From assembly GCF_001715975.1 (NCBI RefSeq), contig NZ_MARB01000012.1:62001-126000 (forward strand): a stretch of 64,000 nucleotides of DNA, written 5' to 3'. The translations under genes were made by a program, and so were the position numbers. Shown piece after piece: positions 1,487 through 63,146 of this stretch (within the stretch, counting starts at the first letter, position 1; every line of letters begins with the position of its first letter). A model generated the notes under the pieces. The model searched no databases. It saw only the letters and a program-made list of their open reading frames with translations, and was not told the origin of the DNA. The stretch comes from Candidatus Thiodiazotropha endolucinida (GTDB lineage Bacteria; Pseudomonadota; Gammaproteobacteria; Chromatiales; Chromatiaceae).

Positions 1487-1981
1487 TTAATGGCTGTCCC
1501 GATTTATTTCGTATTCTTGGCGTACTTGCATCTCTCCTGCTAGCGCGTTCTCAAAAAAATAACTGACTGATTCCCATCTTGCTTCTGGATAGTTCATACC
1601 CTCCGAATAAAAATATACTTGAGGATCTTCACTCTCCCCCAGCAAAAAATATCCAAATTCATAACCCTGATGCATAAAAATGATAAATGCATTTTTTGGC
1701 AATAGACTGCTTTTACCTTCTTCTTCTAGCAATTCGACAGCCCATTCTTGTATCTCTAGAATGCTATCAAAAAAAATATCTGTTCCCTGGAGAAATGTTC
1801 CACTTGATTTCCCCAAGTTTTTCAAAAATTTTTTATACTCCAATGGCAACTGATACCCAGCAGTTTCTTCAATTCTTTTGATTTCAGATTCAACGCAACC
1901 TGTTATTTCTTTTTTCTCTGCAAAATAAACCGGACACCCATCGATAATTTGCCAAAATAGTTTAAGTCTGGCAATCTCTAC
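1487..1981 (-). pseudogene. SMI1/KNR4-family immunity-like gene, 5' truncated
   Basis: The open frame runs from 1981 (after an in-frame stop at 1984-1982) to the stop at 1487-1489. It encodes about 164 residues with the SMI1/KNR4 hallmark E-I-K-R-I-E-E...Y-Q-L-P-L-E-Y-K-K-F-L, followed by acidic aromatic segments and a final W-E-S-V-S-Y-F-F-E-N. SMI1/KNR4 proteins are common immunity proteins of contact-dependent and Rhs-type toxins. No ATG, GTG or TTG occurs in frame before the conserved helix: the only candidate, TTG at 1849, starts inside the domain. The natural start therefore seems to be lost where the transposase unit begins (about 1982-2009). No cognate toxin adjoins it, so it is an orphan, probably inactive. 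Confidence 0.7.
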
Positions 1982-3343: not shown

Positions 3344-3628
3344 TTATTTCACGCTATTTTCATATGGCAGACTGTAGCCATTTTCTTTAAGAATACTTTC
3401 GTAATTTTCTTGTTGAGACTCAAAACATTCTACCAAATATTCCAACTCATCAATAAGAACTTCATCTCCCATCTTTTGCGCCAATGACAACGACCTTCTA
3501 AGATTAGATAGATAAATACTCCATGTATCACCTTGGATAGCAATAGCCGGAAACTTTCTCCAAGGTAACTTAACTACATTAGATCGCTGCCCATCAGGAA
3601 ACAAAAACGTATCTGCTTTTTCAGACAT
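3344..3628 (-). CDS. putative immunity protein of the Rhs toxin (94 aa)
   Basis: The gene starts 3 bp after the Rhs stop codon, with a GGAG inside the toxin's last codons as ribosome binding site, so the two are translated from one transcript. The protein is small and acidic: a beta-rich N-terminal half (V-V-K-L-P-W-R-K-F-P...I-Q-G-D-T) and a helical C-terminal half ending G-Y-S-L-P-Y. This resembles a family of about 90-residue bacterial proteins with the LPxRKFP/QGD signature that I cannot name with certainty. Position, size and cytoplasmic nature fit an immunity protein that neutralises the toxin tip. Function is inferred from context only. Confidence 0.7.
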   Translation of the reverse strand: MSEKADTFLFPDGQRSNVVKLPWRKFPAIAIQGDTWSIYLSNLRRSLSLAQKMGDEVLIDELEYLVECFESQQENYESILKENGYSLPYENSVK

Positions 3629-3631
3629 ATT

Positions 3632-6600
3632 TTACTCCGGCGTAAACTTAATATAAGGACGACGCTTATCAAGTGGATTTTCAGCTCTAGAGAAAATATC
3701 TTGTCCTGTTCTCGCATGTTCACCAGTACCAACAGGGCCTCTCGGCAAAAACCTTCTGATTTTCTTTCTAAGTTTATGATTTAGAGGTCCATCAACGATA
3801 AAGTCCCAATCCGATCCATGAGCATAACCGCCAGTATATGCTTGGCTACCTACTACAGTTATCCCAACACCGGTTACGTTAACAAACCCTTGAATGACCC
3901 TTTCCACACCTACAGATAAACTACCCGGCAATGCACCTCCTCCGTACTCAGGGGAGCAATTCTTAACCAGGACACTAGAATTACCAATATGATAATTATG
4001 AGCACTTGCTACTGTCAGGTTATATGTTTTAACTACGTTAGAAATAGGTTTTATGCCAGTAATTACAATTTGTTGCTCGGCATTTTTTACTTTATCACCT
4101 ACTATCAAATCTTTGGCGTGGACCCATTGCCCAGAAACATAGAATGGGTGTTCCGGCGTCGCGTTTATTACATCACCTGAATTGAATTGGATCTCGAGAT
4201 ATAGCGCTTTTTCACCTTGAATAAGGTGAATAATTTCTCTGTAGACTAGTTCTTCATTTAATTCATCATACGCGAGTACTAAGTCGCCAATCTCAATATT
4301 TTCTATTGCAACCTTTCCATCTGGGGTATCGACCAAAGTCCCTTCAGAAAAACTGTTTTTCTTTTTACATCTATTATTCTTCTTGCTTCCTTTGGATTTA
4401 CTGAAACCTTTAGCTTTCGTCAGTTTAAGAACACGCAGTGATAAAGATGCAAGAAGCAAAGTTCCCGCTTCTCTTGAAGTTAAACCGTCACCATCTGTTG
4501 ACAAAGTGAATACGTCATACGTAGTCGTGGCAATCGTCGATAATGTCCCCATGACATTAATCGCCGATATCATGCCACCGATACTAAAGTTGCCCGATGG
4601 ATCGATCAGGTTCCCCGGATCGGCATGGGCATAGAGATATTTATGCAGGGTGATGGGATCGTGATTTCTTCCCATCCAGGTATCTTGCTGGGTAAAGCGT
4701 CCTTGGCTTGGATCGTAGTATCTTGCGCGTAGGTAATACTGATCTAATGTCGGGTCGAACTGCTCTCCAGCATACAGATAGCCGTTTTCAACAGCACCTA
4801 TCTGATTAAGCACCTCCCCAAACGCCTCATAATCATAGGTGTTCGCAAGGATACCCTGGCTGTCTGTTAAAGAGCGTGTACTGCCCAGCCCGTCGTAGTG
4901 GTAGTAGTGGATTTCTCCACTACGATCCTGGCTGATCAGGTCGTCCCCGTAAGTGTAGCTCACCTGGCTCGCGCCGTCGTCCTCGATCAGCACCTGGGCG
5001 TAATCCCGGTTCTCGTCCACGATGTAGCGGGTGGTGACCCCGCTCTCGGTCTTGCTGGTGCGGATGCCGTTGGGGTTGTAGCGGTATTGAGTCGTTATCC
5101 CACCCAGCTCCACACTGATCAGCTCGTTCTTCGCATTGTAGCTGTAGGTAGTGGTGTCGGTATCCAGCGTTTCACTCAGGGTGTTGCCGTTGTTGTCGTA
5201 GGTATAACTCGTTCCCCCCTGCTGGGTCAGTCGATCATTGGCATCATAAGTGTAGGCGGTCTGCACCCCATCGATCGTGCTGTAGATGCGATTGCCCACC
5301 CCATCGTATTGGTAGCTGGCGCTGTAATTGCCGTTTTGGCTATCGGTGATGCTTTCGCTGGTCAACCGGTAGAGATCGTCATACCCATAGGCAGTGCTTC
5401 TGCCGCTCTGCTCGTCGATCCCGATGCGTCTGCCGGTGGCATGCAAGGTGTAGTCGTAGGCCCGGATCAGGGTGCTGGCGCCGTCGTAGGTCTCCTTGCG
5501 GGTCAGGCGGTTGAGGCTGTCGTAGACATAGACCTCGCTGCTGCCGTTGGGATAGCTGACGCTGGTGCGGTTGCCCACGGCGTCGTAGCCGTAGCTGGTG
5601 ATGCCCGCAGCGTCGGTGACGCTCTGCAGCCGGTTGAGGCTGTCGTAGCCGTAGCCGGTGGTTGTCACCGTACCGCCTCGGGTGAGCGTTACCCGGGTAC
5701 GGTTGCCCGCCGCGTCGTACTGGTACGCGAGGGTGACACCGTCGGGCTGGGTCTCGCTGATGAGGCGGTCCCGAGCGTCGTAGGCGTAGGTGGTGATTTC
5801 GGTTGTGCCGCCTGGGAGGGTAACCAGGACTTGGGCGCGATTACCCACCGCATCATAACTGAACTGCTCGATCCGCCCGTCGGCATAGTCGCTCTGGACC
5901 AGGCGGTTGTCGCTGTCGTACTGGTGGCTCGTGCTCTGGCCGTTGAAGTCCACATGGCTGATCAGGTTGCCGTTGGCGTCGTAGGCGAAGCTCTCGCGCT
6001 GACCCAGGGGCAGTTCACGGGCCGTGACCCTGCCCAGGGCATCGTAATCCCAATGGGTAGTGCGGCCTGCGGCGTCGGTCTGGGTCAGTTTGTTGCCTGC
6101 CTCGTCGTAGCTGTAGGTGGTCTGGCCGCCCAGGGCGTCGGTAACCAGGATAAGACGACCCAGGGCGTCGTAGGCGTAGCTGGTCTCGATGCCCGCCTCA
6201 TCGGTTTGGACGGTGCGCCGCGAGAGGGCATCGTAGGTCTCGTTTCGGTTGCTATTGTCGTCATGGATCACCGAGATGCGCTGATCCAGGGCGTTGTAGA
6301 CGTAATCCGTACGTCGGTTCAGGGCGTCGATTTCGGCTATGAGGTTGCCGTCGGCGTCGTATTCGAAGCGGTGCTCGTTACCCTGGGCGTCGGTAGCACT
6401 GATGCGCCGCCCAGCGGCGTCATAGGCGTATTCGGTGCGATTGCCCCGTTCGTCGATCTCGGCGCTGACCCGGCCCACGGCGTCGTATTCGGTTTGGACG
6501 GTGACGCCGTCGGGGGTGGTGACCTGGATCCGGCGATCGAGGGCGTCGTAGGCGTAGCTGGTGGTGCGGCCCAGGCGGTCGGTCTCGGTGAGCAGGCTGC

Positions 6601-9600
6601 CTTCCGGGTCGTAGGTTTTGGTTTCAGTGGTAGTGTCGGGGTAGCGGGTCTCCGTCAGACGGCCGTAGGCGTCGTAAATCATTTCGGTGCGCCGGCCCAG
6701 GACGTCGACAGTGGCGACTTGGTTGCCCGCCAGGTCGTACTCGCTGTGCGTCACGTTACCCAAGGCATCGGTGGTACGGATTACCCGGTCGAGGGCGTCG
6801 TACTCGTAGGCGGTGGTCTCGCTGACCTGGCTGTTGTCGGCCAGGGTGCGGCTGCGGGTCTCGGTGAGCACGTTGCCGTTGGCGTCGCGAGTGTAGCTGG
6901 TCACCGCCCCCAGGGCATCGGTTTCGGTCGCTTTGTAGCCGTTGCCGTCGTAGGTATAGCTCGTCACATTACCCAGGGCATCGGTGGTGCTGGTGACCTG
7001 GCCGAGGCTGTTGAGGGTGTTGCCGGCGGTGTTACCCAGGGGGTCTTCGATGCCGGTCAGGTTGCCAACGGCGTCATAGGTGTTGGTGAACACATCGCCA
7101 CTAGCGTCGGTGATAGTGGTTTCCTGACCGCGTGCATTGTAGGCGTAGCTGATGGTATTACCCAGGGGATCGGTCTGGGTCAGTTGATCGTCGTCTGCGT
7201 TAAAGGTCGCACTGCTGACCTGGCCCAGGGCGTCGGTTTGGCTGAGCTGGTTGTCGCGGGCGTCAAAAGTATAGGTGGTAACGTTGTTCAGGGCATCCAC
7301 CTGAGTAGTGACGTTACCCCGTGCGTCGTAGCCGTACTGAGTCGCATAACCCCGGCGGTTGGTGACCACCGACTGGTTGGCGCCCAGGTCATGGTTGAAG
7401 CTTGTACGGTTACCGTCGCTGTCTTCCTGGGCGATGAGACGGCCGTCGGTGTCGTAGATATTGCGGATCAGCCGACGGCCCAGGGGGTCGAGGGTATCGA
7501 TCAGGCCGTGGCTGTTGTTGTAGGTGTAGGTGTAGGTGGTGACCGCGTTGTTGCGGTCGGTGACCGAGATCAGATCACCGGTATATCGGTAGGCGTAGAC
7601 CAGACTCCGCCCCGCCGGGTCGGTGACGCCGGTGATCCGGCCGTTGCCGTCACGGGTGAAGGTGACGGACGGACCGGCGGAGTGGCTGATGCCCATGTCG
7701 CTGTAGGTCAGGGTCTGGCCATTGGGATCGGTGATCCGCTCAACCCCGAAGTCCTGGTTGAGCTGGTAGACATAGCCGGCGCGGGTGGTCAGCGTGTAGC
7801 GGGTGACCGGTTGGGCCTGGCCGTCGCCGGCCGTGGCCAGATAGCCGTTGTCCAGATCCGAGAGGTAGAGGGACTGGGCATCGGCGGTCTCCAGGGTCGA
7901 TTGGGTACCGTCGATCGCCTCGAAGAAGAGATCGTAGGTACGATCAGTCGACATGTAGCAGTTGGGATCGCTGACCGCCCCTTCCAGACCGTTTGACGGC
8001 CGGGCCACGACACGGAATTTTTCGATGTCGTTGTTGGGCAGGGTGATCGAGACGGTCTTTTCCGATATCGGGTAGATGCAGATGGCATTGGTGTTGACCA
8101 GGCCCGTACCCGACTGGAATGTTTCGTTCTGACTGATCACCTGTTGCCAACCCTGGGTCGGCTCCTGGCTCTCTTCGAGCCGGACATTCTGGTAATCGAT
8201 CGTCCAGCCGTAACCGAAATCAAGGGCCTCGGTGCGGCGGCGGCTGTCGTAGGTGCGCGAAACCGTGATCGGGATGCCGACCAGGGAGAGTTCGAGATCT
8301 TCCACAGTGAAGCTGAAGTGACCGACTTTGCGGTCGCCGTCGACGAAGACCGAGGCCCGCCGACCCATCACGTTATTGTTGCTGTCGGTAGCCTGCAGCA
8401 GAATGTGATAGATACCGTTGACCAGCAGACTGGGGTCGAGGTTGGCGATGATCTCGTTGTCGAAGCTTCGGCTGCCCCGGTAGAGGTCGATATATTCGGC
8501 GTCGTTCTGATCGGCGCGTTTGTAGGCCAGCCAGACTTCGGCCAGGTTGTCGTCTTGGGCGGTGCCGATGATGTCGGTGAGGGAGGTGATCGTGGTCGCC
8601 GTGGCCGGGGAGACGAGCTCCACCACGGGCGGCGTCGTATCGTTCGGATCCCGGACCACGACATAGGTGGTGCGTTCCACGGTTTCGTAGCCATCACTGA
8701 CGGTGACCGTGACGGGGATCCGCCCAACCCGGTCGGGGGTAATGGTGGACGCCAGCAGGGCGTCGAGATCGGCCGGCGCGCCATCCACGTTTAGCGATAC
8801 CTGCGGGGTGGTCGACATATTCCGGGGGATCACATTGAGCGTAACGGATTCACCGAGATCGATCGGCTCGGCTGGGGTGAAGAGCAGGTCGACATCCAAT
8901 GGGATGGTAGCGGGCACCACTTCTACATACCATGTTATTCGCCTGTTAGAAGCAAAGTTACCCAGACTGTCCGTTGCTGCAACCGTTATCCAGAAACTGC
9001 CTTCGGTTGTAGGTGTCCAGCTAATGGTCCCATTTTCTGAATCGATAATCGGCTCAGGTGAATATGAGCCTAAGCGATACGTAATGGGATAATCGCCTTC
9101 ACGGTCGATTGCCTGAGGCTGATGCGTATACTCCCTGCCTACTTTTGCATAGTTCGGCCGGTAAGCGGGGATGAATTCAGGGGGACGGTTAGTGAACGCA
9201 TCGATTCTGACCAGATTTCTTTTTTCAGCGGTCAAACCCTGCGCATCCGTGACAACATAACTCACCCATGCATTGGTGTTATTATATCGATCAGTTGGAA
9301 CCCAGTTGATCATCCCCGTGTTTTCATTAACCGTCATACCATCCGGGGCGACTGCCAAGCTATATGTCAGTGAGTCGCCATCAGGATCCGATGCATTAAT
9401 TTGATATTCATAGGGAATTGACACTTCGGCATTGGGCATACCACCCGGAGTTAAAACCGGTGGTAGGTTATCATCCACCACATTGATAGTGAATTCCTCT
9501 GTGGTGCTACTATTCAGTCGATCTTCGACATGCAAGCGAACGGTATGGGTTCCCAACTGATGATTGTTTGGTGTCCAATAAATGTGTAACTTCTGGGTAC

Positions 9601-12600
9601 CATTGGCCATTACCAAGTCATACCGCATACCCGCTGGCGCTTGTTCAAAAACAACCTTTAGATCATCCAGATTGGCATAGGCGTGAGGAGGAACATCGTT
9701 TTCAACATTTAATATGTACGAATACTGATATCCCATTGACGCAATGCTTGATGGATTGAAGTCTACGATTTGCGGCGGTAGGTTGGGCGACACATTGACA
9801 GTGAAGGCGCGACTCTCCGCCGTACCCCCACGGGCGTCGCGCAGGCCCAGTTCGAACGACTGTTCACCCACCTGCTGGGGAATCCAGCGAAGATAATGTG
9901 TTGCACCTACCCGACTGCGCCGATCATTTTCCCGGGTAATGCTCGTATACCAAGATTGAATGCGTTGGACATAGGCCTCATCGGGGCCCGTCAGGATATC
10001 CACAAACGCTGCATCTTGATCGGCATCAGTGACCAGCATTTGATATTTGAGGTACAACAGATTGCTCTGTAGATAGTCCTGATTGTAGACATAAGGCACG
10101 CCCAGGGTCGCGCTCAGGCTGATGTCCGCCTCGCCAAACACCGGTGGGGTGTTGAAGGGCACATACTCTCGGAGTTCGAAACGTTGTACAGTCTCCAGGC
10201 CCTGTGGGTCGGTGACGCTCAGGACCACCTGTTCCCGTTTGTATTTGCTCAAATCGAATTGGGCCTGGGGCCAGGCAACATGACCCGATCCGTCGAGAGT
10301 CATGCCGGCCGGTCCCTCGACCAGGGTGTAGACCAACGCCTCGCCTTCCGGGTCCTCCGCCAGCAGATCATAGGTGAAGCTCTCGCCTGCCACGACCTCC
10401 AGGTCGGGGAGCGACATCACGACCGGCGGCCGGTTTTGCGTGCCGATCGACCATTCGACGGTGACGGACTGGCTCAATTGATTGACGCTTGCGGTAACTG
10501 TATCGATACCTGATTTGTCGCCACTGTAGCAGTAGCGGACAATGCCATGGGCATCAGCAAAGCGGTAAGCATCACGATTCGTCGCCCCGGCCAGGTTAAA
10601 GCGGATACGTGCGCCGTTGACTGGTACGCCCTGCGCATTCAGGGCGGTTGCTTCACCACACCATTCATTATCCAGCGTTTGTGCGGCATCTCCGGATAGC
10701 GACAAAGAAGCTACCGTGTGGCCCACACTGAGAGCCATGCCCCCCAGGTAGCCGTAGGATTCGAAGGAGTCGTAGCCATACACATAAGCGCCGAAGGGTT
10801 CCTGCGCCTCGATGTGATGCGAACCTGGTGTGATAGGCAACTGGCTGTAGGAATAGGGACTGTTCGGGATTTCACTAAACAGAACCGGATCGACACTTTG
10901 ACCGTCGAGGGTCAGTGTGGAGAGGGCGGCTGTGGGTGCCAGCAGATTGATAAAATTGTAGGCCAGACTCCTTGCGGGCGTATTGATGGTGTATTGCGTC
11001 AGGAACTGCTCGGCGGGGGGCACGACCACCATGAAGGGATCGGTGAAATCCGCTTCCAATTCACGGTAACCTTCGTCGAAGCTGTTGCTGTTGGCATATT
11101 GCACCAGCAGGATCGGGTGGCTGGCCTTGACCTGTTGCGGGTTGAACGACCTGAATTCGAAATACTCGCCCTCGTTCAGGCGCGCCCTGAGTACACCGTC
11201 GATATAGACGGCGGTATTATCGTAGGGCGCCACGGCGCGGAAGGTATCGCCGTACTCTACATGCCAGAAGCGGCCGTTCTCCGTGCGTCCCCAAAACGGG
11301 GCGGTATAGTATTCCATCGCCAGGCTTTCAACGGGCGGGAGTTGCTCGACGATGTGGTCGCAGGCGGTATAGCCAACAGGAATCACGACACAGTCCATCT
11401 GTCCAAACACACCGATGGGCTTGTCCGCCCGGATGGTGCTGCCGGTCAGATCGGCCTTGAAGGAGCCGCGGGTCTCCAGGTTGTAGACATCACCCCGGTT
11501 CATGGTGAGTTCGATCGGGGTGCCTGCCTCGATCTGTCCCTGACCGCCGGTAAAGATATCCATGATCGGATCGATGGTGACCCGAGTATTATCCTCGGTG
11601 GCCACCAGGGTAGTGATCGGCCCCGGTTGTCCGGCGTCCACAGTGGCCATAATGCCTATCTTGCCCAGCATGATAGCAGTCGCGGTGATGTATTCCCGGC
11701 CCAGACTGGCGACGGGGAGCCCCAGAAAACCATCCGTCGTATCGACCTTTTGGCTCATGAAATAGGCAGCAACTGGTGTCGCCGCAGTGATGTGAATGGC
11801 GTAATTATCCAGCAACGCGTTCAGGGTGAAGCCTTCCGTTGCGGCAAAATCATCCAGGTTGATACTGTAGGTCGCCATCTGGCCAGCTGTCAGCGAAAGG
11901 CTTTCAACCACACCCAACGCCGCTATCTCAATTGTCGCCTCTGTGTCTGTTCCTTCTGAAACTAGGTTGATATCAAAGGTGCCCCCGGCAATCGTCGTCA
12001 TATTGTGCGATACCGGTATCCAAAACTCGGTGCCTACATGGCTCAGCGCACGCTCCGCCGGCATGACTTGTATTGAGACAGCCTGCTCCGCCACTCCCCC
12101 ATTACCGTCCACTACGTTAAACAGGAAATCGTAATTACCCAGGACAACACCCGCGGTGGGCCAAGTGATCAGCCCCGTCGCCGGATTGAGCGCGGCCCCA
12201 CTCGGCGCCTGGATCATGGCATAGTTCAGGCTGTCGCCGTCCGGGTCATCGGCTACCAGGGTATAGCGCCACTCATCGCCCTCAATTACAAAAGCCGTAG
12301 GAGCCGAGGTAATTACCGGTGCCCGGTTGCCTTGAACCACTGTGATAGTGAAACTGAGCGTCTGACTGTCGACGCCGTCACTGACGGTAACGACAACCGG
12401 GCCGTGGGTTCCGAGATTATTTCCACCGGGGGTAATGTCAATTGAAGTATCCTGGTGATGGGCGAAGGCAGGCAATCCTTCCACCTGGTAGGTCAGCTCA
12501 TCCCCATCGGCATCACTGGCGTTGAGGGTAAGGGTCAGCGTGGTGTCGGCATCGAGGGTGATATCGCTTAGAGGTTCTAACACCGGTGCGCGGTTGGTAT

Positions 12601-14068
12601 CGGCAATGGTAAGCGTAAAGAACTGCTCGCCACTGGCGCCAAGCGTGTCCTGTACAGCGACTGTTACGGGATGGTCGCCTGCTGCCGCGTAATCCGGGGT
12701 CCAAGCGATAAGCCCATTGGCGTCGATACTCATACCCGCAGGCGAGGTGGTCAAGCTATAGCTAAACGTATTGCTGTCGGGATCGTTGACTTGAACCTGG
12801 TATTGATAAGCCTGGTTTTCTATGCCACTTGTCACCGGGACGGAGGCGATTGCCGGCGCATCGTTAACTGACGAGACCGTCACATCAACCGTGGCAGTAG
12901 GGGAACCAAGCAATCCATCATGGGTTAAATAAGTGAAGCTGTCACTGCCGTTAAAGTCGGCGTTCGGCGTATAGAGCAGATTGGGTGCCACTCCGGAAAG
13001 CTGTCCGTTAAGCGGTTGCGTGACAATGGAGTAGCTTATGCTGTCGCCATCGATATCCTGTCCTTGCAAAACAATGGAAAGAACAACATCTTCTTCGGTG
13101 GTCACAGCGATATCGGAGGCACTCGGCGGACGATTGTCGTCAAGCACTTGCAGGGTAAAGCTTTGACTGTCTGTCAGTCCTGCCGGATCGGTGGCAGCCA
13201 CCGTGACAGCATGCGTACCGATATCGACCTGCCCTGGAACCCAGGTAATCAATCCGTTAGTCGCATCAATGACCATGCCGGCCGGCGCCGTCACTAATGC
13301 GTAGGTAATAACATCGCCCGCATTCGGATCGGTGGCATCGACGTCGTATTGATAAGCTTGGTTTTCCATAGCGCTGGTCACGGGCGTGGAGACGATTTGC
13401 GGCGCTTGATTTATAGTCGATGCCTCAGACACGTTCAGCATATAGGTCTGCTGATCGTATAGGCCCGCATCATCCACGGCACGCACAGTGACCTTGTATT
13501 CACCCGTTTGAGGAGGTGTCCAGGTTATGAGACCGCTCTCACTGTCGATACTCATGCCGGCAGGGAAGGATTTCAGTGAATAGCGAACCGGATCGCCTTG
13601 TCTGTCTATCGCATCCACATCGTAGTGATAGACCACACCCACTTCCGCTGTCAGTAGCGGCGTACTGGTGAAGACAGGAGGTTTATTGTCGCTTCGCTCT
13701 TTGGGCGTCACATGCACAACCGGTGACTGACAGACCTCCACCCCGTTCGAGTTCACCTCTTTCACGGCATATCTGTAACTGGCCCCGGAGATCAGACCCG
13801 AATCCAGATAGTGCGTATCGGAGGATGTTATCTGTACGATCGATTGATAACTGACGCCATCATCGATACTTCGATAAACGTTATATTGCGGCGCCCCGGA
13901 GTAGACCCAACGCAGTTGCACCTCGCTTACCGATGCGTTGGCGTTGAAGTCGGTCAGGCAGTAATCGCTGCCGTCTGTCACGATCGGTTCCGCACAGGCT
14001 ATGTTAAACATGACCGGCAGAGCAAAGATGAACGCTGTGAGTCGCTGAAGATATTTGCTAGAAGACAT
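3632..14068 (-). CDS. giant secreted Rhs/YD-repeat polymorphic toxin with Hint domain and nucleotidyltransferase-like tip
   Basis: The protein has 3478 residues. Approximate order: Sec signal peptide (1-26, A-C-A cleavage site), FN3-like domain (40-125), Ig/cadherin-like 'Asp-rich' repeats (130-670), an IgGFc-binding-like domain (675-1115, from H-V-G-T-E-F-W-I-P), more Ig-like repeats (1120-1900), Rhs/YD repeats (2200-3050), and the Rhs core ending near 3160 (R-Y-Y-D-P-S-Q-G-R-F, L-I-D-P-S-G). A Hint domain follows (3241-3369), starting N-S-F-S-E-G-T and ending V-K-N-C. The tip (3370-3478) has V-G-S-Q-A-Y-T-G-G...G-S-D-W-D-F-I-V, the G-S...D-x-D pattern of Pol-beta nucleotidyltransferases. 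The Rhs shell would encapsulate the tip and Hint would release it. Export is Sec-dependent; no secretion system lies nearby. Start ATG follows AAAGGA. The Rhs part is GC-richer than the tip and immunity gene, as expected for exchangeable tips. Confidence 0.9.
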   Translation of the reverse strand: MSSSKYLQRLTAFIFALPVMFNIACAEPIVTDGSDYCLTDFNANASVSEVQLRWVYSGAPQYNVYRSIDDGVSYQSIVQITSSDTHYLDSGLISGASYRYAVKEVNSNGVEVCQSPVVHVTPKERSDNKPPVFTSTPLLTAEVGVVYHYDVDAIDRQGDPVRYSLKSFPAGMSIDSESGLITWTPPQTGEYKVTVRAVDDAGLYDQQTYMLNVSEASTINQAPQIVSTPVTSAMENQAYQYDVDATDPNAGDVITYALVTAPAGMVIDATNGLITWVPGQVDIGTHAVTVAATDPAGLTDSQSFTLQVLDDNRPPSASDIAVTTEEDVVLSIVLQGQDIDGDSISYSIVTQPLNGQLSGVAPNLLYTPNADFNGSDSFTYLTHDGLLGSPTATVDVTVSSVNDAPAIASVPVTSGIENQAYQYQVQVNDPDSNTFSYSLTTSPAGMSIDANGLIAWTPDYAAAGDHPVTVAVQDTLGASGEQFFTLTIADTNRAPVLEPLSDITLDADTTLTLTLNASDADGDELTYQVEGLPAFAHHQDTSIDITPGGNNLGTHGPVVVTVSDGVDSQTLSFTITVVQGNRAPVITSAPTAFVIEGDEWRYTLVADDPDGDSLNYAMIQAPSGAALNPATGLITWPTAGVVLGNYDFLFNVVDGNGGVAEQAVSIQVMPAERALSHVGTEFWIPVSHNMTTIAGGTFDINLVSEGTDTEATIEIAALGVVESLSLTAGQMATYSINLDDFAATEGFTLNALLDNYAIHITAATPVAAYFMSQKVDTTDGFLGLPVASLGREYITATAIMLGKIGIMATVDAGQPGPITTLVATEDNTRVTIDPIMDIFTGGQGQIEAGTPIELTMNRGDVYNLETRGSFKADLTGSTIRADKPIGVFGQMDCVVIPVGYTACDHIVEQLPPVESLAMEYYTAPFWGRTENGRFWHVEYGDTFRAVAPYDNTAVYIDGVLRARLNEGEYFEFRSFNPQQVKASHPILLVQYANSNSFDEGYRELEADFTDPFMVVVPPAEQFLTQYTINTPARSLAYNFINLLAPTAALSTLTLDGQSVDPVLFSEIPNSPYSYSQLPITPGSHHIEAQEPFGAYVYGYDSFESYGYLGGMALSVGHTVASLSLSGDAAQTLDNEWCGEATALNAQGVPVNGARIRFNLAGATNRDAYRFADAHGIVRYCYSGDKSGIDTVTASVNQLSQSVTVEWSIGTQNRPPVVMSLPDLEVVAGESFTYDLLAEDPEGEALVYTLVEGPAGMTLDGSGHVAWPQAQFDLSKYKREQVVLSVTDPQGLETVQRFELREYVPFNTPPVFGEADISLSATLGVPYVYNQDYLQSNLLYLKYQMLVTDADQDAAFVDILTGPDEAYVQRIQSWYTSITRENDRRSRVGATHYLRWIPQQVGEQSFELGLRDARGGTAESRAFTVNVSPNLPPQIVDFNPSSIASMGYQYSYILNVENDVPPHAYANLDDLKVVFEQAPAGMRYDLVMANGTQKLHIYWTPNNHQLGTHTVRLHVEDRLNSSTTEEFTINVVDDNLPPVLTPGGMPNAEVSIPYEYQINASDPDGDSLTYSLAVAPDGMTVNENTGMINWVPTDRYNNTNAWVSYVVTDAQGLTAEKRNLVRIDAFTNRPPEFIPAYRPNYAKVGREYTHQPQAIDREGDYPITYRLGSYSPEPIIDSENGTISWTPTTEGSFWITVAATDSLGNFASNRRITWYVEVVPATIPLDVDLLFTPAEPIDLGESVTLNVIPRNMSTTPQVSLNVDGAPADLDALLASTITPDRVGRIPVTVTVSDGYETVERTTYVVVRDPNDTTPPVVELVSPATATTITSLTDIIGTAQDDNLAEVWLAYKRADQNDAEYIDLYRGSRSFDNEIIANLDPSLLVNGIYHILLQATDSNNNVMGRRASVFVDGDRKVGHFSFTVEDLELSLVGIPITVSRTYDSRRRTEALDFGYGWTIDYQNVRLEESQEPTQGWQQVISQNETFQSGTGLVNTNAICIYPISEKTVSITLPNNDIEKFRVVARPSNGLEGAVSDPNCYMSTDRTYDLFFEAIDGTQSTLETADAQSLYLSDLDNGYLATAGDGQAQPVTRYTLTTRAGYVYQLNQDFGVERITDPNGQTLTYSDMGISHSAGPSVTFTRDGNGRITGVTDPAGRSLVYAYRYTGDLISVTDRNNAVTTYTYTYNNSHGLIDTLDPLGRRLIRNIYDTDGRLIAQEDSDGNRTSFNHDLGANQSVVTNRRGYATQYGYDARGNVTTQVDALNNVTTYTFDARDNQLSQTDALGQVSSATFNADDDQLTQTDPLGNTISYAYNARGQETTITDASGDVFTNTYDAVGNLTGIEDPLGNTAGNTLNSLGQVTSTTDALGNVTSYTYDGNGYKATETDALGAVTSYTRDANGNVLTETRSRTLADNSQVSETTAYEYDALDRVIRTTDALGNVTHSEYDLAGNQVATVDVLGRRTEMIYDAYGRLTETRYPDTTTETKTYDPEGSLLTETDRLGRTTSYAYDALDRRIQVTTPDGVTVQTEYDAVGRVSAEIDERGNRTEYAYDAAGRRISATDAQGNEHRFEYDADGNLIAEIDALNRRTDYVYNALDQRISVIHDDNSNRNETYDALSRRTVQTDEAGIETSYAYDALGRLILVTDALGGQTTYSYDEAGNKLTQTDAAGRTTHWDYDALGRVTARELPLGQRESFAYDANGNLISHVDFNGQSTSHQYDSDNRLVQSDYADGRIEQFSYDAVGNRAQVLVTLPGGTTEITTYAYDARDRLISETQPDGVTLAYQYDAAGNRTRVTLTRGGTVTTTGYGYDSLNRLQSVTDAAGITSYGYDAVGNRTSVSYPNGSSEVYVYDSLNRLTRKETYDGASTLIRAYDYTLHATGRRIGIDEQSGRSTAYGYDDLYRLTSESITDSQNGNYSASYQYDGVGNRIYSTIDGVQTAYTYDANDRLTQQGGTSYTYDNNGNTLSETLDTDTTTYSYNAKNELISVELGGITTQYRYNPNGIRTSKTESGVTTRYIVDENRDYAQVLIEDDGASQVSYTYGDDLISQDRSGEIHYYHYDGLGSTRSLTDSQGILANTYDYEAFGEVLNQIGAVENGYLYAGEQFDPTLDQYYLRARYYDPSQGRFTQQDTWMGRNHDPITLHKYLYAHADPGNLIDPSGNFSIGGMISAINVMGTLSTIATTTYDVFTLSTDGDGLTSREAGTLLLASLSLRVLKLTKAKGFSKSKGSKKNNRCKKKNSFSEGTLVDTPDGKVAIENIEIGDLVLAYDELNEELVYREIIHLIQGEKALYLEIQFNSGDVINATPEHPFYVSGQWVHAKDLIVGDKVKNAEQQIVITGIKPISNVVKTYNLTVASAHNYHIGNSSVLVKNCSPEYGGGALPGSLSVGVERVIQGFVNVTGVGITVVGSQAYTGGYAHGSDWDFIVDGPLNHKLRKKIRRFLPRGPVGTGEHARTGQDIFSRAENPLDKRRPYIKFTPE

Positions 14069-61948: not shown

Positions 61949-63146
61949 GCTTCACCGGCCCCCATTGGTGGGCCATTTTCACCAGTCCCACCTCGCTGCT
62001 TTCGTGTCGCACCTTGAACTGGCAGCAGACCGGGCGAGAATCGTAGACGTGCAATCCGCTGCGGTCGATCAACCAGGCCTCCAAGGCATAGTCACCCGAC
62101 ATCAACATCAGAGGATCAAAGAGTAGACGTGCACCATGGACAGTCCCGTCAATGGGCAGCAGATTGCATTGATCGATCAGGGTCGAGACACCGTAGACCT
62201 GCAAACCGTCATTGCGGATCAACACCAACCCGATATGCACGTCATCGACCGGGCGCGTCCCGATCTCCGCCCGCACATTGATCGCCAAGGCGTCCCCCTG
62301 TCGAAACAGCGGGGCGCCCTCTGCAGTATCGACACCCCCCTCGAGGGAGACTTCCTGAAGGTAGACATCGCTTACCGCATCCGTTTCTGCAGATAGCCGT
62401 TGACCCGTGGGACTGCCGCCCTGCCGGGAACGGACATAATCCTGATAGTCATCCACTACCGTGGCGGAATCGCCCTGGGCCCTGATCACACCATGATCCA
62501 GCCAGATCGCCTGCTCGCACAACTCTTTCACCTGATAGAGATTATGTGAACAAAACACCAAGGTGCGTTTTTCGTCGCGAAACCCCATCATTCGGTCCAT
62601 GCTCTTCTTCTGGAACAGCGCATCACCGACCGACAGGGCCTCGTCCACAATCAGCACATCGGGCTCGATCGAGGTCACCACCGAAAAGGCAAGTCTCACA
62701 AACATCCCGGACGAGTAGGATTTGACCGGCCGCATGATGGCGTCACCCAGCTCGGAAAAAGCGATGATATCGGGTATGCGGGTCTTGGTTTCAACTGCAC
62801 CGAGGCCGAGCATCGAACAGGCCAGACGAATATTCTCCAAGCCGGAGAATTCCGGATGGAATCCCGATCCCAGTTCCAGGATCGCAGACTTTCGCCCTTC
62901 TATGTGCAGGGTGCCGGATGAGGGTTGCAAGGTGCCCGCCAACAGTTTGAGCAGTGTCGACTTGCCGGCCCCGTTGTCGCCAATGACACCGAACGTCGCA
63001 CCTTTCTCGATAGTCAGATCGATTGGAGTCAGGGCCTTGATCTCAGTATGAAAGGGCCTCTTCAACAACCACTCTTTGAAGAGGTCCACGGGCTTTGCAT
63101 ACTGTCGATAGTTTTTCGACAACTGTTGGGCTTGAATCGCGATCAC
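61932..63146 (-). CDS. polysaccharide ABC exporter ATP-binding protein (Wzt-like)
   Basis: The ABC ATPase has Walker A G-D-N-G-A-G-K-S-T near residue 58, signature Y-S-S-G-M near 155 and Walker B V-L-I-V-D-E-A near 178. A C-terminal extension (about 255-404) resembles the carbohydrate-binding Wzt-C domain that recognises capped O-antigen. GTG 63146 overlaps the permease stop in GTGA, so I prefer it (404 residues) to the upstream start at 63293, which would run into the permease. It pairs with the next gene. Confidence 0.88.
   Translation of the reverse strand: MIAIQAQQLSKNYRQYAKPVDLFKEWLLKRPFHTEIKALTPIDLTIEKGATFGVIGDNGAGKSTLLKLLAGTLQPSSGTLHIEGRKSAILELGSGFHPEFSGLENIRLACSMLGLGAVETKTRIPDIIAFSELGDAIMRPVKSYSSGMFVRLAFSVVTSIEPDVLIVDEALSVGDALFQKKSMDRMMGFRDEKRTLVFCSHNLYQVKELCEQAIWLDHGVIRAQGDSATVVDDYQDYVRSRQGGSPTGQRLSAETDAVSDVYLQEVSLEGGVDTAEGAPLFRQGDALAINVRAEIGTRPVDDVHIGLVLIRNDGLQVYGVSTLIDQCNLLPIDGTVHGARLLFDPLMLMSGDYALEAWLIDRSGLHVYDSRPVCCQFKVRHESSEVGLVKMAHQWGPVKHVATI

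Follow-up and report, generated by a model that had tools for sequence, protein, structure and literature searches.

The stretch of DNA analysed here (the window) comprises 64,000 nucleotides of contig NZ_MARB01000012.1 of Candidatus Thiodiazotropha endolucinida (positions 62,001 to 126,000), and it carries on its minus strand a gene for an Rhs polymorphic toxin (3632..14068) whose C-terminal end, the toxin tip, is the subject of this report.

The Rhs toxin gene and its C-terminal tip

The toxin gene is open over 3478 codons, and the 3478-residue product looks like an exported protein, with an N-terminal hydrophobic stretch that was read by eye as a putative signal peptide. According to Pfam, the protein is built from Ig/cadherin-like repeats, an IgGFc_binding region, RHS repeats (22 stretches of RHS_repeat, E 1.3e-123), a PT-HINT domain and the C-terminal tip, and it also contains He_PIG matches. 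The IgGFc_binding match (PF17517, residues 779-1098, E 7.3e-70) lies amid the Ig-like repeats of the N-terminal half. The self-cleaving PT-HINT domain (3959..4336, minus strand, residues 3245-3370) scored 71.8 bits against a cut-off of 27.7 (E 8.7e-20), and the source genome of 4.49 Mb has no second match to PT-HINT at E 0.001. The first residue of the domain, as read by eye, is Ser (NSFSEGT), at a position where Cys is usual.

The end of the HINT domain, ...SSVLVKN-C, directly precedes the tip and forms an Asn-Cys junction with it. The tip (3632..3958, minus strand), which profile, alignment and model comparison describe as a minimal Pol-beta nucleotidyltransferase-like domain, consists of 108 residues plus the stop, i.e. 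the Cys that follows the HINT Asn and 107 further amino acids (3635-3955) ending in ...RRPYIKFTPE. The first-pass annotation of this DNA, which was made from the letters, had given it 109 residues, one too many. The 94-residue protein mentioned in the same annotation proved to be encoded by a real gene (3344..3628, minus strand), whose ATG lies 3 bp past the toxin stop and whose product matches the Pfam family DUF6959 (E 5.5e-13). The G+C content falls from 0.61 in the Rhs core (4601-8000) to 0.37 in the HINT domain; the tip has 0.45 and the small downstream gene 0.36. Such a fall is as expected of a swapped cassette.

To place the tip among other proteins, relatives were collected. A tblastn search of plasmids yielded one relative, a HINT toxin of Streptomyces, with 41% identity between its tip and the query across 55% of the query length, and the alignment of the two tips served as the query pattern for a genome scan. 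The pattern was fitted by 131 stretches, 17 of which encode relatives of the tip (16 in Streptomyces and one in Actinoplanes; one of the 17, L026, is broken). Because this method favours close relatives, the taxon spread observed is a minimum. No further full-length tip was found among the genomes sampled near the source (93 relatives, 398 genomes of the phylum and 369 of the class), none was confirmed in two scans of viral_contigs, and there was none in phages. A candidate from the 93 related genomes (L003) was rejected since it runs antisense to a long frame, and four profile matches (L005, L006, L028 and L029) were rejected as tips since they look like stand-alone minimal nucleotidyltransferases (MNT proteins), the family of the MntA antitoxins that AMPylate HepT. 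The tips of the relatives sit behind HINT ends (...LVHN), behind an Rhs core without HINT (L011 and L012) or in other contexts (L010, L014, L018 and L020). Judged from these gene contexts, the tip is modular and is exchanged between backbones as polymorphic toxin tips are.

Conserved residues, profiles and models of the tip

The window tip and 16 relatives (L010-L025, the broken L026 being left out) were aligned. All 17 tips carry the active-site motif, which in the window reads GS-x11-DWD (3803..3850, minus strand; tip residues G36, S37, D49 and D51), and thus the hG[GS]...Dx[DE] core that had been noticed from the single sequence is borne out by the family. The alignment has 24 invariant columns, including G36, S37, D49, W50, D51, R63, L70, G73, E79, G84, D86, P100 and F104. 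The spacing of the motif is GS-x10-DxD in 14 of the 17 tips, x11 in two, one of them the window tip, and x12 in the remaining one.

The profile searches that had been suggested to check the tip gave a divided answer. The window tip alone had no match in Pfam or NCBIfam, and a single-sequence search of the PDB returned nothing useful. The family was more informative, since Pfam NTP_transf_2 and NCBIfam MntA_antitoxin (NF047752) each matched 14 of the 17 tips, though weakly (best E 0.0022 and 0.0061, respectively) and in neither case the window tip; the latter matches remained below the curated cut-off of 60 bits, which is far above what an E value of 0.0061 implies. When the PDB was searched with a profile, the top match was the MNT antitoxin 7ae2 (E 0.029, over GSRATGNINANSDWDF), followed by an unrelated ribosomal protein (E 0.56) and by two more MNT proteins (0.6 and 0.7).

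The tip family profile was then compared by hhalign with a profile of 26 MNT proteins, and a score of 50.4 was obtained (probability 95.7, P 1e-8). Five of the 26 had themselves been retrieved by means of the tip profile or lay beside such a match (loci L005, L006, L028 and L029), and the comparison with the 21 independent MNT proteins still gave a score of 43.5 (probability 93.5, P 2.3e-7); the probability was 94.5 when the window row was removed from the query of the 21-protein comparison. For control, the columns of the profile were shuffled 100 times, and the highest score that a shuffled profile reached against the 26-protein set was 16.8, versus 50.4; a DUF5958 profile reached a probability of 0.1 against the MNT proteins. 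Since none of the 17 tips departs from GS and DxD and the family profile scores far above its shuffles, the motif is more than a chance likeness. The window tip alone gave weaker scores, 31.7 (probability 75.0) against the 26 MNT proteins and 24.2 (probability 24.7) against the 21, so that its link to them runs mainly through the family.

The first-pass annotation had remarked that a third catalytic acid was not obvious, and the family alignment leaves two candidates for it. Asp86 (3698..3700, minus strand), just before a predicted strand at residues 87-89, is invariant in 17 of 17 tips, and so is Glu79. In a local alignment with the 26 MNT proteins, one of the five alignments that reach this position, Asp86 is paired with the third Asp of the MNT proteins. 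The other four (a global alignment with the 26 proteins, a single-sequence alignment and two with the 21 proteins) place the Asp86 stretch at a later MNT strand, and when the five MNT proteins derived from the tip profile are left out the pairing is lost, although the family match stays (43.5); these observations weigh slightly against an active nucleotidyltransferase and in favour of a non-catalytic tip or of another fold. A third alignment with the 21 proteins stops short of Asp86. The alignments thus disagree, and both Asp86 and Glu79 are kept as candidates for the third metal-binding acid.

The comparison of two AlphaFold models agreed with the profiles. Nucleotidyltransferases filled Foldseek ranks 1-13 with one model and 1-12 with the other, and in VIA-align minimal nucleotidyltransferases came first with both models, over 81-87 residues and with middling scores. 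The structure prediction that had been proposed as a check could have revealed a fold unrelated to nucleotidyltransferases, and it ranked these enzymes first instead. Taken together, the family profile and the two models uphold the nucleotidyltransferase-like reading made from the single sequence, and this assignment of enzyme class appears well supported.

Genes next to the tip and candidate immunity proteins

Its position directly downstream of the toxin makes the DUF6959 gene a candidate immunity gene. DUF6959 is carried by 6 of the 398 genomes of the phylum, the source genome included, and inspection by eye of about 1.5 kb upstream of the gene in the five others revealed no recognisable toxin; a role of DUF6959 as a general immunity family is thus unsupported. 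In three of these five genomes, all of one genus (L033, L034 and L035), the DUF6959 gene follows genes that by eye are YadA-like and OmpA-like, with no toxin recognised between them. A DUF6959-like gene on a Citrobacter plasmid (L007, 2980-3249) has resistance genes on either side and resembles a cassette of the class 1 integron in which it lies.

The actinobacterial tips have a different partner. In 17 of 18 loci (L004 and L010-L025) the next gene on the same strand encodes a DUF5958 protein (PF19383), the exception being the broken L026, with DUF5958 on the opposite strand; three partner genes were scanned and all three matched PF19383. DUF6959 and DUF5958 are unrelated by profile comparison (probability 0.3).

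DUF5958 is frequent on Streptomyces plasmids (44 records), and the neighbourhoods in 24 of the 43 other plasmid records were viewed, the annotation being incomplete in some. A Fic gene lies directly upstream of DUF5958 in three of the 24, two of which share one protein accession, and the Fic motif found there, HPFEDGNAR, fits HxFx[DE]GNxR. These stand-alone Fic genes (L070 1827-2881, L078 830-1881 and L082 827-1881, on Streptomyces plasmids) overlap DUF5958 by 4 bp, and the overlapping genes resemble toxin-immunity or toxin-antitoxin pairs. In another record a gene of the 2'-5' RNA ligase family (L075, 860-1902) overlaps the start of DUF5958 and is a possible further toxin partner; about 0.6 kb downstream, on the opposite strand, there is an annotated toxin Doc. 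The remaining 20 of the 24 records were scanned for motifs, which revealed no Fic or tip motif, and several of their DUF5958 genes adjoin barstar-family genes. DOC-type toxins are described as transferring AMP or UMP to proteins (PMC3482391). That DUF5958 is common to Fic genes and to the tips, together with this chemistry, provides a weak independent hint at nucleotide transfer by the tip.

Further downstream in the window, on the same strand as the toxin, lies a gene of the SUKH (SMI1/KNR4) family (1487..1849, minus strand; SUKH_6, 34.2 bits over a cut-off of 27), which is probably an orphan immunity gene left from an earlier tip. A plus-strand open reading frame between this gene and the toxin and DUF6959 genes (2010-2999) had no Pfam match.

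Proposed activity of the tip and comparison with known systems

With slightly better than even confidence, we propose that the Rhs/HINT toxin has as its warhead a minimal nucleotidyltransferase of the Pol-beta fold, namely the tip, which, once freed by the HINT domain, nucleotidylates a protein of a rival cell, the DUF6959 protein conferring protection. The HINT domain would cut after the Asn and free the tip, which in the rival cell would bind a nucleoside triphosphate and Mg2+ through the GS pair, the two DxD aspartates (D49 and D51) and one more acid, either D86 or E79. The tip would transfer a nucleoside monophosphate (NMP), most likely AMP, onto a host protein, growth would stop, and the DUF6959 protein would guard the producer. 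Transfer of AMP to protein is favoured because the best matches of the tip are MntA-type AMPylators. A bolder proposal, which we put forward only tentatively and rate as rather unlikely, is that of a role reversal, in which the MntA fold, a silencer of toxins by means of AMPs on a tyrosine, would here be delivered as a toxin and would possibly stack AMPs on an essential target; DUF6959 and DUF5958, unrelated to each other, would act as immunity proteins, the latter being shared with Fic AMPylators.

A nucleotidyltransferase in the tip might instead act on RNA and, like MenT, add a nucleotide to the 3' end or the acceptor stem of tRNA and block translation. We regard this as unlikely, though clearly the foremost of the competing explanations, since MNT proteins outscored CCA-adding enzymes in VIA-align with both models, and since the tip, which has only 108 residues, shows no recognisable RNA-binding domain of its own. 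Modification of a small molecule, or synthesis of a poisonous nucleotide signal, would be in line with RelA/SpoT toxins as a known type of polymorphic toxin (PMC3482391) and with the aminoglycoside adenylyltransferases AadA and AAD(9) among the Foldseek rows of both models, AAD(9) taking rank 1 with one of them. However, the chains of AadA and AAD(9) have about 250 residues versus 108 in the tip, and in VIA-align these enzymes ranked below the MNT proteins or were absent from the list (the absence of a family from such fold-match lists excludes nothing), so that we consider this explanation highly improbable.

Two further explanations deny catalysis or the fold itself. The tip could have the fold of a nucleotidyltransferase, be non-catalytic and kill by sequestering its target or a nucleotide, as the third acid left unpaired in four of the five alignments might indicate; the invariance of GS and of both Asp residues of DxD is not expected of a dead enzyme, Glu79 and Asp86 are invariant too, and we give this possibility very little weight. 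It seems just as improbable that the tip is not a nucleotidyltransferase and that the likeness of the motif is a local one within another fold, e.g. that of a metal-dependent nuclease, since both models place nucleotidyltransferases first in Foldseek and minimal ones first in VIA-align, and column-shuffled profiles score one third or less.

The proposed nucleotidyltransferase warhead is not a new principle, because minimal Pol-beta nucleotidyltransferases were already proposed as polymorphic-toxin tips from comparative genomics (Ntox45, in 2012 and 2017); it would be a further case of a predicted toxin kind that apparently lacks experimental study, and a good case for a test. The literature searched showed, among the titles and starts of abstracts listed, no experimental study of a minimal-nucleotidyltransferase polymorphic-toxin tip, named Ntox45 only in Zhang et al. 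2012 and Iyer et al. 2017, both comparative genomics, and named DUF6959 and DUF5958 in no paper. The toxin of this locus is compact and its frame uninterrupted, a small gene adjoins it, and 18 further loci (one of them broken) are available for comparison. If the tip AMPylates a protein, interbacterial toxins would be linked with the chemistry of HEPN-MNT antitoxins, and a first function would be suggested for DUF6959 and DUF5958.

The entry for Ntox45 in Zhang et al. 2012 describes an alpha+beta domain with DxD, found in Actinobacteria, alpha-proteobacteria and Bacteroidetes together with HINT and RHS, and its table row lists no immunity protein (PMC3482391). The tip family fits the alpha+beta description, DxD, the combination of HINT with RHS and the occurrence in Actinobacteria, a likeness by description only; in contrast to that table row, the tips analysed here are followed by DUF6959 or DUF5958. 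The minimal Pol-beta nucleotidyltransferases of polyvalent proteins are placed by Iyer et al. 2017 closest to NTox45 and at a greater distance from HEPN-linked nucleotidyltransferases, and NMP transfer to protein is suggested for them (PMC5512222). The first-pass annotation could name no family for the tip, and Pfam and NCBIfam indeed give the window tip none, nor did an Ntox45 family come up in their scans of the tips; Ntox45 is nevertheless its likely precedent, matched by description.

The MenT and AbiEii toxins resemble the tip in being nucleotidyltransferases that serve as toxins, but they are larger proteins and belong to toxin-antitoxin systems that act on tRNA. Fic/Doc proteins share with it the predicted chemistry and, in some Fic genes as in the Streptomyces tips, a following DUF5958 gene, but their fold is all-alpha and hence unrelated.

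The tip also resembles the MntA/MNT antitoxins (NF047752, PF01909), which have a motif of the GSX10DXD type and the same helix-strand-strand(DxD)-helix-strand order and provide the best, though weak, profile and VIA-align matches of the tip. In Shewanella MntA, D39, D41 and D71 are reported as the Mg2+ ligands, and GSX10DXD as needed for moving three AMPs to a tyrosine of HepT (PMC7641770). No HEPN-type gene was recognised beside the tip, the neighbour being DUF6959 in the window and DUF5958 in the relatives. The tip also has conserved LPRG, GxGE and PYxxFxP stretches of its own, and, whereas MntA is a stand-alone antitoxin, it forms the C-terminal end of a large toxin-like protein.
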